This document shows positions 35,928 through 39,670 of a DNA stretch of 51,643 nucleotides, piece by piece. The position numbers and the translations under genes are program-made. The notes beneath the pieces were generated by a model. The model did not search any database. It was not told where the DNA came from and was given only the letters and a program-made list of their open reading frames with translations. This DNA comes from an uncultured Gemmiger sp. (GTDB lineage Bacteria > Bacillota > Clostridia > Oscillospirales > Ruminococcaceae), in NCBI GenBank assembly GCA_944382785.1, contig CALWNO010000016.1, positions 1 to 51,643 on the forward strand, read 5' to 3'. Position 1 is the first letter of the stretch; the number at the start of each line of letters is the position of its first letter.

Positions 35928-35972
35928 AAAACCGCCCTCAGCCAATCCGGCCGGGGGCGGTTTTATTTCCTT
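35928..35972. terminator. Bidirectional terminator, SGNH gene / rrf2
   Basis: AAAACCGCCC pairs with GGGCGGTTTT around a GC-rich loop, then ATTTCC. It separates two convergent genes. Confidence 0.85.
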
Positions 35973-36408
35973 ATTCCAATTCAGGCAACGGCAGATCATC
36001 TGCCTTCATGGTGCGCAGTTGCTCCAGGGTGATGCCGTCCACATACCGGTCGATCACCTGGCGCAGCCCATCCCAGAATCCGATGGTGTGGCACTGGGGC
36101 CGACGGGGACAGGTTTCGGCCTGACTGGCCAGGCAGGGGATGGGCACCAGATCCCCCTCAATGGCCCGCAGAATATCCCCGGCGGTGATCTCATTGGCCG
36201 GGCGGGTCAGACGGTAGCCGCCCTGACTGCCCCGGCTGCTGCTCACCAGCCCGGCGCGGGACAGAGGGGTGACGATCTGTTCCAGATACTTCTGGCTGAT
36301 TCCCTGTCTGTCGCTCACGCTTTTCAGAGACAACGGCTCCCCCGGACCGCGGTTGGCCAGCTCCACCATCAGGCGCAGGGCATAGCGGTCTCTGGTCGAA
36401 AATTTCAT
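35971..36408 (-). CDS. Rrf2 family regulator with three conserved Cys
   Basis: 145-aa regulator. N-terminal winged helix: MKFSTRDRYALRLMVELANR (1-20), SLKSVSDRQGISQKYLEQIV (27-46), GGYRLTRPANEI. Cys92, Cys100 and Cys106 (PCLASQAETCPRRPQC) match the IscR-type [2Fe-2S] ligand region, with slightly different spacing, so an iron-sulfur or redox sensor is likely. Rrf2 proteins also include CymR, the repressor of cysteine metabolism. It is divergent from the methionine transporter and its leader, so control of that operon is plausible. I chose the ATG at 36406-36408, preceded by GAAGGGAGAAAACTCC. Confidence 0.92.
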   Translation of the reverse strand: MKFSTRDRYALRLMVELANRGPGEPLSLKSVSDRQGISQKYLEQIVTPLSRAGLVSSSRGSQGGYRLTRPANEITAGDILRAIEGDLVPIPCLASQAETCPRRPQCHTIGFWDGLRQVIDRYVDGITLEQLRTMKADDLPLPELE

Positions 36409-36471: not shown

Positions 36472-36531
36472 GTAAAACATAGAAAAAATATAGGAAAACT
36501 TTGTTTCCGGCTGTTTTTTGCCGCCAAAGGC

Positions 36532-36560
36532 TTGACACAGGCAGACAAAGGGGGTATACT
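36532..36560 (+). promoter_or_regulatory. Promoter of met leader / metQNI
   Basis: Perfect TTGACA (36532-36537), 17-bp spacer, TATACT (36555-36560). The expected start near 36567 puts about 35 nt before the first leader peptide. Confidence 0.85.
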
Positions 36561-36601
36561 GTCACCATTCCAACCGAAATTGCAGGAAAGGGGATGCTGT
36601 C

Positions 36602-36700
36602 ATGACTTGTAACGAACGCCGTGATGGTATGATGATGTGCATGTGCAGTGGGCTTCGGCAACCTGCGCATGTTTCCCCTTGCCCGTTTTTCGGGGCTTAA
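36602..36700 (+). CDS. Met/Cys-rich leader peptide, 32 aa
   Basis: Short ORF with AGGAAAGGGG upstream. It encodes MTCNERRDGMMMCMCSGLRQ followed by PAHVSPCPFFGA. Four of its Met/Cys residues run nearly in a block (MMMCMC, residues 10-15), as expected for a leader peptide that measures charged Met-tRNA or Cys-tRNA. It ends 14 bases before a perfect intrinsic terminator and lies 197 bp upstream of the methionine transporter operon. No SAM riboswitch is visible in this leader, so the peptide is the most likely sulfur-amino-acid sensor. The C-terminal RQPAHVSPCP resembles the second peptide (RQPGVRMCPR), which argues that the peptide sequence itself also matters. Confidence 0.7.
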   Translation: MTCNERRDGMMMCMCSGLRQPAHVSPCPFFGA

Positions 36701-36714
36701 GGCAGGAGACAGCA

Positions 36715-36749
36715 GCGGCAGGGCGCCGAAAGCGCCCTGCCGCTTTTTT
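36715..36749 (+). terminator. Leader terminator (attenuator) of metQNI
   Basis: Perfect 12-bp stem GCGGCAGGGCGC (36715-36726) with GCGCCCTGCCGC (36732-36743), loop CGAAA, then TTTTTT. It lies between two leader peptides and the transporter genes, so it should be regulated. Upstream CCTGC (36662-36666) and GCAGG (36702-36706 or 36718-36722) allow competing pairings. Confidence 0.9.
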
Positions 36750-36785
36750 GTTTGTCTTGCCCTGATAAGAAAAGGAGGAGATCTC

Positions 36786-36839
36786 ATGAAGACCAGCCCC
36801 AGCTGCCGCCAACCCGGCGTGCGAATGTGCCCCCGCTGA
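36786..36839 (+). CDS. Second leader peptide, 17 aa, Cys-containing
   Basis: ORF with AAAGGAGGAGATCTC directly before the ATG. It encodes MKTSPSCRQPGVRMCPR. It sits after the attenuator and 57 bp before metQ, so it is translated only from read-through transcripts. It shares RQPxxV..CP-like spacing with the C-terminal part of the first leader. The strong ribosome binding site makes chance unlikely. It may act as an arrest peptide that controls metQ translation, or simply couple ribosomes to the message. Confidence 0.6.
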   Translation: MKTSPSCRQPGVRMCPR

Positions 36840-36896
36840 AAACGCTTGCCCCCGCACCTTTGTGCACATCAATACAACCGTAAAGGAGAAAACACC

Positions 36897-37832
36897 ATGA
36901 AAAAGAAACAACTGCTGTCCGGCCTGCTGGCCGCCGCCCTGACCCTGAGCCTGGCCGCCTGCGGCAGCGCTCCCGCTTCCGAGAGCACCTCTGCTCCTTC
37001 CTCTGAGAGCACCGCTGCCACCTCTGACACCGCTGCAGCCGAGACCACCGGTGCCACCGGTGACGGCTTCGATCCCACCGTGGACTATGAGGCGCTCAAG
37101 GGAACCACCATCACGGTGGCCGCCTCTCCGGTGCCCCACGCCGAGATCCTGAAGGTGGCCGGTGAGATCCTGGCCGGTGCCGACATCAACCTGAAGGTGG
37201 TGGAATTCACCGACTACATCCAGCCCAACAAGGCCACCGAGAACGGGGAAGTGGACGCCAACTATTTCCAGCATGGCCCCTACCTGGACAATTTCAATGA
37301 GGAAAACGGCACCCATCTGGTGAGCGTGGCCGCCATCCATTACGAGCCCCTGGGCCTGTACCCGGGCAAGACCAAAACTCTGGATGAGCTGGCCGACGGC
37401 GCCCAGATCGGTGTGCCCAACGACACCACCAACGAAGCCCGCGCCCTGCAGCTGCTGGCTGCCCAGGGGCTCATCACCCTGAAGGACGGCGCCGGTCTGA
37501 CCGCCACCAAGAACGATATTGTGGATAACCCCAAGAACCTGAACATTGTGGAGATGGAAGCCGCTCAGCTGCCCCGTCAGCTGTCCTCCCTGGATATGGC
37601 CGTCATCAACGGCAACTACGCCACCGAAGCCGGTTTCTACTCCGCCGATGACGCCATTGCCGCCGAGGATGCCGACAGCGAAGCCGCTCAGACCTACGCC
37701 AACATCCTGGTGGTGAAGGAAGGCAACGAGGAGACCCCCGCCACCAAGGCCCTGATCGCCGCCCTCAAGAGCCAGAAGGTCAAGGACTACATTACCGACA
37801 CCTATCACGGCGCTGTGGTTGCCATTTTCTGA
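36897..37832 (+). CDS. metQ: Methionine ABC transporter, substrate-binding lipoprotein
   Basis: 311-aa NlpA/MetQ-family lipoprotein that delivers methionine to the MetNI permease. The signal peptide MKKKQLLSGLLAAALTLSLA ends in lipobox LAAC at about residue 22. An acidic Ser/Thr linker (25-58) is followed by the binding domain: ITVAASPVPHAEILK (about 72-86), VEFTDYIQPNKA, VDANYFQHGPYLDNF, ALGVPND-type (IGVPNDTTNEARAL), and MAVINGNYATEAGF. These are all MetQ signatures. TAAAGGAGAAAACACC precedes the ATG. First gene of the metQ-metN-metI operon behind the peptide leader. Confidence 0.95.
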   Translation: MKKKQLLSGLLAAALTLSLAACGSAPASESTSAPSSESTAATSDTAAAETTGATGDGFDPTVDYEALKGTTITVAASPVPHAEILKVAGEILAGADINLKVVEFTDYIQPNKATENGEVDANYFQHGPYLDNFNEENGTHLVSVAAIHYEPLGLYPGKTKTLDELADGAQIGVPNDTTNEARALQLLAAQGLITLKDGAGLTATKNDIVDNPKNLNIVEMEAAQLPRQLSSLDMAVINGNYATEAGFYSADDAIAAEDADSEAAQTYANILVVKEGNEETPATKALIAALKSQKVKDYITDTYHGAVVAIF

Positions 37833-37970: not shown

Positions 37971-38972
37971 ATGATCGAACTGCAACATCTGACCAAACGG
38001 TTTGCCACCAAGGCAGGCACGCTGGTTGCCCTTCAGGATATCTCCCTGACCATCCAGGACGGGGATATCTTCGGCATCATCGGTATGTCGGGCGCGGGCA
38101 AGTCCACCCTGGTGCGCTGCATCAATATGCTGGAAAAGCCGGACGAGGGCAGCGTCATTGTAAACGGCCGCAAAATGGAGACCCTGGATGCCCGCGGTCT
38201 GCGGGAAGCCCGGCGGGAGATCGCCATGATCTTTCAGCAGTTCAACCTGCTCATGCAGCGCAACTGCCTGAAAAACGTCTGCTTCCCCATGGAGCTGGCC
38301 GGTGTGCCCAAAGACAAGGCGGAGGCCCGTGCCCGGGAACTGCTGGAGCTGGTGGGCCTGCCCGACAAGGCCGAAAGCTACCCGGCCCAGCTTTCCGGTG
38401 GCCAGAAACAGCGTGTGGCCATCGCCCGCGCCCTGGCCACCGACCCTAAGGTCCTGCTGTGCGACGAAGCCACCAGCGCCCTGGACCCCAACACCACCCA
38501 CGCCATCCTCCAGCTGATCCAGAACATCAACAAGGAGCTGGGCATCACGGTGGTCATCATCACCCACCAGATGAGCGTGGTGGAGCAGGTCTGCCAGAAC
38601 GTGGCCATCCTGGACGCCGGCAAGGTGGTGGAGCAGGGTTCCGTAGCGGAAATCTTCTCCAACCCCAAGACTCCGGCGGCCCGCCGTCTGGTCTTCCCGG
38701 CCGGCGCTCCCCAGGGCGAACTGCCCGCCGGTCACCGGTTGGTGCGGGTGGCCTTCAACGGCACCCAGACCACCGACAAGCCTCTGGTGGCCAGTCTGGC
38801 CATCGAATGCGGGGCCCTGGTCTCCATCGTGGCGGCGGATACCCGCATCGTCAACGGCCAGACCCTGGGCAGCATGCTCCTGGCCCTGCCCGATAACGCC
38901 GACGAGGCCGAAAAGGCCATCGCCTACATCCGCACCTATCCCGGTCTGACATATGAGGAGGTACAGGCATAA
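37971..38972 (+). CDS. metN: Methionine ABC transporter, ATP-binding protein
   Basis: 333-aa ATPase. Walker A GMSGAGKSTLVRC (about 39-51), Q-loop IFQQFNLL, ABC signature LSGGQKQRVAIARAL (about 139-153), Walker B VLLCDEATSALDP and H-loop IITHQ. The C-terminal 80 residues (HRLVRVAFNGTQTTDKPLVA... to the end) form the NIL domain that senses methionine and shuts transport (trans-inhibition) in MetN proteins. I chose the ATG at 37971, after GGGAGGAATCACAACC; an in-frame ATG 28 codons upstream has only the hairpin before it. Its stop shares a base with the start of metI. Confidence 0.96.
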   Translation: MIELQHLTKRFATKAGTLVALQDISLTIQDGDIFGIIGMSGAGKSTLVRCINMLEKPDEGSVIVNGRKMETLDARGLREARREIAMIFQQFNLLMQRNCLKNVCFPMELAGVPKDKAEARARELLELVGLPDKAESYPAQLSGGQKQRVAIARALATDPKVLLCDEATSALDPNTTHAILQLIQNINKELGITVVIITHQMSVVEQVCQNVAILDAGKVVEQGSVAEIFSNPKTPAARRLVFPAGAPQGELPAGHRLVRVAFNGTQTTDKPLVASLAIECGALVSIVAADTRIVNGQTLGSMLLALPDNADEAEKAIAYIRTYPGLTYEEVQA

Positions 38973-39670
38973 TGGAATTTCTGTTTGCTTCGGATGAATG
39001 GCAGGTCCTGCTGGACAACCTGCCCAACCTGCCCTTTGCCACCTGGGAAAGCTTTTACGCCACCGCCATCTCCACCATCCTGGCCATGGTGGTGGGCCTG
39101 CCCCTGGGCGTTCTGCTGGTGGCGGGGGAGAAGGACGGCGTCCTGCCTCTGCCCGGCTGGCTCATGACCCTGCTCAATGCCGTCATCAACCTGCTGCGCA
39201 GCGTGCCCTTCCTGATCCTGATGATCGCCGTGCTGCCTCTGTCCATGGTGGTGCTGGGCACCTCCATCGGCACCCCGGCCTCCATCATTCCGCTGTTCAT
39301 TGCCTCCTTCCCCTTTGTCTCCCGTCTGGTGGAAACCAGCCTGCGGGAGGTGGACGGCGGCGTGATCGAAGCGGCCCAGAGCATGGGCGCCACCCCGCTG
39401 CAGATCATCATCAAGGTGATGATCCCCGAAAGCCTGCCCAGCCTGATTGCCAACGCTACCATCGCCATGACTACCATTCTGGGCTACTCGGCCATGGCGG
39501 GTATCATCGGCGGCGGTGGTCTGGGCCAGATCGCCATCAACTACGGCTACTACCGCTATAAGTACCTCATCATGGTGGTGGCTACGGTGCTGCTGGTCAT
39601 CATGGTACAGATCTTCCAGTCCATCGGCACCTGGCTGGCTGTGCGGTGCGACAAACGCCTGCGCAAGTGA
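38972..39670 (+). CDS. metI: Methionine ABC transporter, permease
   Basis: 232-aa inner-membrane permease with five or six hydrophobic segments. The coupling-helix EAA motif is visible as VIEAAQSMGATPLQIIIKVMIPESLPSLI (about 131-159). FYATAISTILAMVVGLPLGVLL and TTILGYSAMAGIIGGGGLGQIAINYGYYRY are typical of MetI. Its ATG overlaps the metN stop by one base (TAATG), so both subunits are made together. A strong terminator follows. Confidence 0.96.
   Translation: MEFLFASDEWQVLLDNLPNLPFATWESFYATAISTILAMVVGLPLGVLLVAGEKDGVLPLPGWLMTLLNAVINLLRSVPFLILMIAVLPLSMVVLGTSIGTPASIIPLFIASFPFVSRLVETSLREVDGGVIEAAQSMGATPLQIIIKVMIPESLPSLIANATIAMTTILGYSAMAGIIGGGGLGQIAINYGYYRYKYLIMVVATVLLVIMVQIFQSIGTWLAVRCDKRLRK

Follow-up and report, generated by a model that had tools for sequence, protein, structure and literature searches.

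The Gemmiger metQNI leader: a putative methionine-codon transcription attenuator followed by a second conserved upstream reading frame

The window, by which we mean the whole 51,643-nucleotide stretch analyzed, is contig C16 of genome G000 (2.68 Mb) of an uncultured Gemmiger sp. and carries, on its forward strand, metQ (36897-37832), metN (37971-38972), and metI (38972-39670). The best NCBIfam models were PRK11063 (193.5 bits) and TIGR00363 (191.6 bits) for metQ, both below their cut-offs, ABC_MetN for metN (361.2 bits, below the cut-off of 499.7), and PRK10782 for metI (193.1 bits, below the cut-off of 212). Upstream of metQ, on the same strand, lie a promoter at 36532-36560 (TTGACA at 36532-36537, 17 nucleotides, TATACT at 36555-36560); a 32-codon reading frame, ORF1 (36602-36700; MTCNERRDGMMMCMCSGLRQPAHVSPCPFFGA), led by the Shine-Dalgarno (SD) sequence AAAGGGG and containing the codons Met-Met-Met-Cys-Met-Cys at 36629-36646; a perfect 12-bp terminator (arms at 36715-36726 and 36732-36743) with a run of six T residues (36744-36749); and a second small frame, ORF2 (36786-36839; MKTSPSCRQPGVRMCPR), behind the ribosome binding site AAGGAGGAG. 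Each of these elements, and the metQNI gene order, had been described in the initial annotation and is present at the position given there. S-box riboswitches, T-boxes, or protein repressors are generally regarded as the main controls of methionine genes in Bacillota.

metQ is present in 32 of 35 Gemmiger genomes, and the Met-run string ATGATGATGTGYATGTRCA occurs exactly once per genome in 30 of the 35, with 0 control matches. A script that required the promoter, the Met run, and a T-run retained 29 of the 30 metQ loci fetched; the only locus dropped, L031, has no upstream DNA. The same TTGACA-17-TATACT promoter and a predicted SD-led ORF1 were found in all 29 kept leaders. We noted that the run reads M-M-M-x-M in 29/29, as aligned, that position 4 is Cys in 28 leaders and Arg in L006, that position 6 is Cys in 23 and Tyr in the six leaders L012-L017, and that the distance from its first Met to the stop codon is 69 nucleotides in 25 of the 29. 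A covariance model, R1, was built from these leaders, which therefore match it by construction; it matches 33 of the 35 genomes, G004, G030, and G009 being new and outside the training set. Of the 32 metQ-bearing genomes (35 searched), 31 have the leader upstream of metQ; 29 of these trained R1, and the other two, G004 and G030, were not part of its training set. In G009, the leader and metQ sit at the ends of separate contigs. The two genomes that R1 misses, G028 and G029, are without metQ, as is G017, in which the R1 match sits at metG. Two further genus matches (G016:C31 and G009:C404) proved on reading not to be leaders; the match G027:C7:70801 and two on the reverse strand are candidates only. 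Across 197 genomes of the family, R1 matched 17, including 3 Gemmiger; 7 of the 14 others were read, and none was a Met leader. A class-wide Met-run leader pattern found a match in 14 of 391 genomes (loci L270-L283); this pattern, a narrow one, failed to find even G000. In the 2.59 of 2.99 Mb of genome G026 that were scanned, 79 short SD-led ORFs combine a run of any residue with a terminator; two of them are Met/Cys ORFs, and a run of 6/6 is seen in the metQ leader only. Because the looser Met/Cys criterion alone is passed by 39 of 8,240 short ORFs, terminator and position matter. We also looked for loss of ORF1 or its Met codons in close relatives, one of the two outcomes that the initial annotation had named as refuting its proposal, and found both to be kept genus-wide.

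The terminator is conserved as well: 95.8% of the cells of its stem are paired across the leaders, compared with 38-58% in slid versions, and 8 of the 12 pairs have changed on both sides. The codons behind the Met run provide a competing partner. The predicted antiterminator pairs TTCGGC (36654-36659) with GCCGAA (36725-36730) and CCTGC (36662-36666) with GCAGG (36718-36722), so that its 5' arm, region 2 (36654-36666), faces a 3' arm (36718-36730) overlapping the terminator 5' arm, region 3 (36715-36726); pairing 2:3 is thus exclusive with pairing 3:4, in which region 4 (36732-36749) comprises the terminator 3' arm and T-run. The initial annotation had suggested competing pairings of CCTGC with GCAGG at 36702-36706 or within the terminator arm. 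Both sequences are at the positions given, and it is with the GCAGG of the terminator arm that the pairing of CCTGC is conserved; the antiterminator, as read from the alignment, is longer than the one first proposed. When the nascent RNA was folded over the segment starting immediately behind a ribosome placed on the run and extending to the terminator loop, the LRQP-region codons took the terminator 5' arm in 29/29 leaders, and the antiterminator fold ranged from -29.7 to -42.3 kcal/mol versus -22.7 to -32.6 kcal/mol for the terminator. Of 308 antiterminator cells, 93.2% are paired, versus 38-58% in slid versions, and 0/500 shuffles reached as high a value; in a shorter alignment, A2, the figures were 92.9% and 37-67%. 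In 29/29 leaders, the native codons behind the run gave a better fold than 200 synonymous recodings did on average (z -0.57 to -5.71), a result that does not amount to 29 independent tests, as the leaders are related. Swapping terminator arms between species against region 2 did not single out the native pair. Region 1 (36639-36648) is the 5' arm of a putative protector hairpin, P1, with 36663-36672; 91.4% of its cells are paired, with no two-sided covariation and barely above its shuffles. The stop codon of ORF1 falls between regions 2 and 3. Of the three things that the initial annotation had proposed to look for in an alignment, the Met run and the terminator are conserved across the Gemmiger leaders, whereas for the covarying antiterminator the pairing is borne out and the covariation only in part, two-sided change being limited to 2/11 pairs, a number reached by 421 of 500 shuffles.

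We then considered where a ribosome on ORF1 would leave region 2 accessible. In a simple occlusion model, placing the A-site on the six run codons gave mean antiterminator occupancies of 0.70-0.77, and placing it on the two codons preceding the run gave 0.76; past the run the occupancy fell to 0.48, 0.31, 0.21, and 0.12, recovered to about 0.3 (codons +12 to +15), and was 0.00 on the stop codon. The antiterminator was also favored in free nascent RNA (0.63). In the model, therefore, the Met run is the downstream edge of a permissive zone, the place where a stall would still help, and other places are permissive too. At full-length equilibrium the terminator wins (mean antiterminator 0.00-0.05), which implies that the decision must be kinetic. 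When charged Met-tRNA is scarce, a ribosome would stall in the run, region 2 would stay free and capture the terminator 5' arm ahead of synthesis of the 3' arm, and transcription would continue into metQNI. With ample Met-tRNA, the ribosome would cover region 2 and next sit at the stop between regions 2 and 3; P1 may then re-form, and the terminator would form. The earlier proposal that stalling at Met codons could prevent termination is thus supported by the conserved run, the terminator, the antiterminator, and the modeled geometry. Stalling is an awkward way to sense methionine, because initiation also needs Met. By its anatomy, the Gemmiger metQNI leader is that of a ribosome-mediated attenuator, and we consider it very probable that it is a transcription attenuator like those of trp and his, in which ORF1 acts as a sensor attuned to charged elongator Met-tRNA, with ORF2 as a second, separate element.

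Initiation may be controlled as well. CymR-like repressors had been listed as if absent, but an Rrf2-family gene that had been overlooked lies divergently at 35971-36408 on the reverse strand (NCBIfam rrf2_super, 129.2 bits, above the cut-off of 73.3). It scored 111.5 bits with the IscR model (cut-off 207.55) and 110.1 bits with the CymR model (cut-off 195), both below the NCBIfam equivalog cut-offs, and on these scores it is assigned to the Rrf2 family only, as a CymR/IscR-like member. An Rrf2 homologue is found at 27 of 30 Gemmiger metQ loci, L031, with no upstream DNA, being among the 30. A box resembling CATA-N9-TAGG, in the window a putative operator at 36478-36494, stands 5' of the promoter in 17/29 loci at variable distance, as found with a loose regular expression for which there was no chance control. 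Control of initiation by the Rrf2 regulator may therefore add to attenuation. As a separate observation, the leaders L061, L093, L100, and L103 have GTAGG between -35 and -10, and L093 and L103 also have an upstream Rrf2 homologue.

The same leader precedes metG, the gene for methionyl-tRNA synthetase (NCBIfam PRK12267, 910.9 bits, above the cut-off of 598), in 7 of 34 metG-bearing genomes. The metG leader runs are GMMRMCS, GMVRMCS, GMCMRG, GMYMCS, GMRMRG, GMRMGV, and AMCMGQ. Each run keeps two or more Met codons, and Cys is variable. The terminator arm is held upstream in 7/7 of their nascent folds, and the L299 leader carries a compensating change, UCUGC:GCAGA for CCUGC:GCAGG. Placed on a transporter and a synthetase, and with Met kept and Cys lost, the leader represents a natural mutagenesis experiment. 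Because only Met is common to the two settings, charged Met-tRNA is the likely signal. The initial annotation had allowed for stalling at Met or Cys codons; the Met part is supported by the 29/29 runs and the metG copies, and the Cys part is not. A leader sensing cysteine, or cysteine and methionine together, through the Cys codons of the run would be in keeping with the prevalence of Cys at positions 4 and 6 of the metQ leaders and with some distant leaders that are richer in Cys than in Met (MCCCRMRMC, L063). However, the replacement of Cys by Arg or Tyr in the metQ leaders listed above, the two metG runs that keep Met without any Cys (GMRMRG and GMRMGV), and the fact that the metG product makes Met-tRNA and not Cys-tRNA leave this reading improbable. 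Still less probable, in our estimation, is an aptamer binding SAM or Met that overlaps ORF1 and makes the short ORF incidental. The ORF1 nucleotides are strongly conserved, and S-box riboswitches are described as the usual Firmicutes device in PMC4239095; yet the conserved segment is an ORF that contains a run of Met codons, the distant leaders, which are dissimilar, share only Met/Cys codons and layout, and no Rfam match was obtained in 20 Gemmiger loci (17 metQ and 3 metG). The earlier statement that no riboswitch core is visible holds, as neither a SAM aptamer, the other outcome named there as refuting, nor any Rfam family scored over cut-off in the leader, and none of the Rfam families did so in the window. 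A permissive search for a known RNA family in the leader gave only matches below cut-off, mostly to the terminator stem, the best being DnaX at 24.1 bits on the minus strand. The only SAM-I riboswitch of G000 precedes metK (L001, G000:C18:16671-19768), which indicates that riboswitch and attenuator divide the methionine genes. A T-box scored over cut-off in 1 of 18 loci (L053, 3602-3845), directly before metQ of another lineage; T-box-like sequences were seen by regular expression in L038, L040, L065, and L068, none over the Rfam cut-off.

ORF2, previously remarked on only for its ribosome binding site, is, from its conservation, a separate element in its own right. Before metQ its motif is Q-P-G-[V/I]-R-M, with V replaced by F in the metG copies; its conserved core lies at 36810-36829 in the window, and the end of the motif is 42-123 nucleotides before metQ. 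The Q, P, G, and V codons vary synonymously (CAA/CAG, CCC/CCG, GGC/GGT/GGG), whereas the Arg codon is CGA in 26/26 metQ copies and is followed by Met and then by TGA (14 copies), TGC (9 copies), or TGT (3 copies). As this count was made on copies selected for CGAATGTG, a search on the peptide only was also run over 59 fetched loci (metQ, metG, and other); it returned the same 26 copies and 7 metG copies, all 33 with CGA-ATG-TG(A/C/T), and in these loci no QPG[VIF]RM with another Arg codon. Chance QPGxR strings occur elsewhere in the fetched loci, and one, QPGHRM in L006, likewise uses CGA. A nucleotide pattern with CGAATGTG built into it matches 34 sites, distributed over 27 of the 35 genomes, and gave 0 control matches; all 34 sites precede metQ (27) or metG (7). 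Contigs of two strains of the commensal Gemmiger formicilis, MCC627 and DFI.6.10 (L036/L037), carry both ORF1 and ORF2. G000 itself carries ORF2 on metG (MKTSPRCRQPGFRM, L304), its metG being split over two contigs. Among the 28 of 34 metG-bearing genomes in which upstream DNA was read, 7 have an ORF1-type leader, 7 have ORF2, 0 have both, and 14 have neither. No conserved RNA fold was found around ORF2 (RNAalifold 0.0, 33 copies). The second upstream ORF is thus a very specific conserved element that is open to immediate test.

Because there is neither a conserved fold nor a Rho model match over cut-off, the likely actor in ORF2 is either its peptide or a slow decoding step at CGA-AUG-UGN. 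ORF2 could be a ribosome-arrest peptide, with QPG[VIF]RM in the exit tunnel, a slow CGA, and a weak next codon, in which case the arrested ribosome would protect the mRNA or set metQ/metG translation. In its favor are a peptide conserved through synonymous changes and not through RNA structure, as is typical of arrest peptides, the invariant CGA-ATG-TG(A/C/T) of the 33 copies, the rarity of CGA, which accounts for 0/103 Arg codons across eight genes of the window and for 7% in the long frames of G026, and the confinement of ORF2 to metQ and metG. Against it, three of the 29 metQ loci read (L011, L017, and L020) lack ORF2, as does L303, ORF2 stands on only 7 of the 34 metG genes, and its stop position varies; on these sequence grounds we regard arrest as a serious possibility, though one that we lean slightly against. 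Rho-dependent termination in the downstream linker, for which tnaC is the analogy, would fit the C-rich composition of that linker (pooled C 0.33, G 0.21; C above G in 29/33). But G exceeds C in 4 of the 7 metG copies, and the Rho model was over cut-off in 0/35 genus genomes, compared with 8/14 controls and 12/14 ring genomes; weaker matches, covering part of the model, occur in 31/35 genomes (best 38.3 bits versus a cut-off of 509) and are taken for ATPase paralogues, as candidates only. We therefore give a Rho mechanism almost no credence. Returning to the peptide, we tentatively propose, while holding it rather doubtful, that ORF2 represents a new class of Met-linked regulatory nascent peptide, in which QPG[VIF]RM with an obligatory rare CGA and then UGA or a Cys codon would arrest the ribosome on methionine, SAM, or Met-tRNA and control metQ and metG without conserved RNA structure or Rho. 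Together with the attenuator, this would place one ribosome-based sensor behind another, the two being separable and serving the same amino acid, with their modules shuffled between transporter and tRNA synthetase.

In the proteobacterial trp, his, and leu attenuators, a leader ORF with a run of regulatory codons is combined with 1:2, 2:3, and 3:4 alternatives that end in an intrinsic terminator. The Gemmiger leader has the same layout, its 1:2 hairpin (P1) being putative, but differs in its sensor codons (Met), its phylum (Bacillota), its presence also on metG, and a second conserved upstream ORF past the terminator. The stop codon of trpL lies between regions 1 and 2, whereas that of Gemmiger ORF1 lies between regions 2 and 3. 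Arrest peptides of the TnaC and SecM type are short and conserved, with conserved C-terminal residues. ORF2 resembles them in these respects, and in 14/26 metQ copies UGA follows Met, although no sequence match is claimed, no Rho was found over cut-off in the genus, and arrest of ORF2 is putative. As described in PMC8632094, uORFC-8-2 upstream of cysS in Rhodobacterales comprises a terminator and a leader ORF whose tandem Cys codons fall within the first stem; like the Gemmiger leader on metG, it joins sensor codons and a terminator to an aminoacyl-tRNA synthetase gene, but the amino acid and phylum differ, and the likeness is one of description, not of sequence. PMC2965389 reports a regular His leader peptide at hisZ/hisS* of bacilli where others use a T-box; both are Firmicutes leader peptides with different amino acids and genes. 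In Salmonella mgtCBR, tandem attenuators involve two short ORFs in one leader, according to PMC3641672; two short ORFs are found here likewise, whereas signals and genes differ and Gemmiger ORF2 comes after the terminator without one of its own. For Actinobacteria, PMC1262725 describes Cys leader peptides and reports that the regions preceding methionine operons show no conserved RNA structures. S-box, T-box, and transcription-factor control of methionine genes is covered in PMC4239095 and PMC3771891, and a term search of the latter returned no leader peptide. Among the matches listed for open PubMed Central full text, a scope outside which subscription papers and preprints fall, there was no methionine leader-peptide attenuator.

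Leaders of similar layout occur outside Gemmiger. The distant loci came from the best 80 listed matches to Gemmiger MetQ in named genome contigs, which is not an even sample, and a leader was defined as a short SD-led ORF in which 10 codons include 5 or more for Met or Cys and whose stop is no more than 1500 nucleotides from the next metN/I/Q match. Dissimilar Met/Cys-rich leaders were found before metNIQ genes at 20 of 74 non-Gemmiger loci among these best listed matches (L038-L111), for instance MAQFSNSMMNMDMMMQMSMGMCVMMMCKNIYNTCL in L092, MNTLYFNNTMMMMCSRSMMMSMVSFDACYVPTDCTSAF in L066 (Anaerotignum), and MRTAIFPENGRRMMSEMMCMCRCMCMSCMSCGKEKCAPDVSV in L104 (Roseburia inulinivorans). A terminator is predicted in 17 of the 20 by mechanical calls, of which L078 (at -11) and L093 (at +2) are doubtful. 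In a test of 68 loci among the best MetQ matches listed, Cys+Met led the 190 residue pairs (16 loci, against an antisense expectation of 0.0), and Met led the single residues (9 loci, expectation 0.0). Runs of AUG are thus a likely sensor in Gemmiger and in these 20 of 74 best-match loci, even though AUG also starts proteins, and sensing of this kind makes possible a direct test of how Met-tRNA is shared between elongation and initiation. The nascent-fold test took 15 distant leaders, 14 of the 20 and L113, leaving out L050, L061, L063, L078, L093, and L107, which have no clear terminator. At least half of the terminator arm was paired upstream in 14/15, but only 7/15 clearly beat synonymous recodings (z < -1.5) and 4 folded worse; L100 and L097 have striking antiterminators, and others were not distinct from their recodings. 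On the distant loci, the covariance model found several true leader positions (L113 at 33.9 bits and L097 at 30.2 bits) and also non-leaders at 19-28 bits, so that homology with the Gemmiger leaders is not proven.

Two smaller observations concern these distant loci. In L061, L093, L097, L100, L102, and L103, the MetQ-like frame appears about 300 residues longer upstream of the MetQ-aligned part, and Cys-rich leaders (MCMMMCGC, MCCCRM) precede these genes, which may belong to a different substrate class, e.g. cystine. Further, L061 (-132), L097 (-135), and L103 (-136) have second short ORFs just 5' of the gene with a shared RMP[QL][GA]RRC motif, perhaps a counterpart of ORF2.
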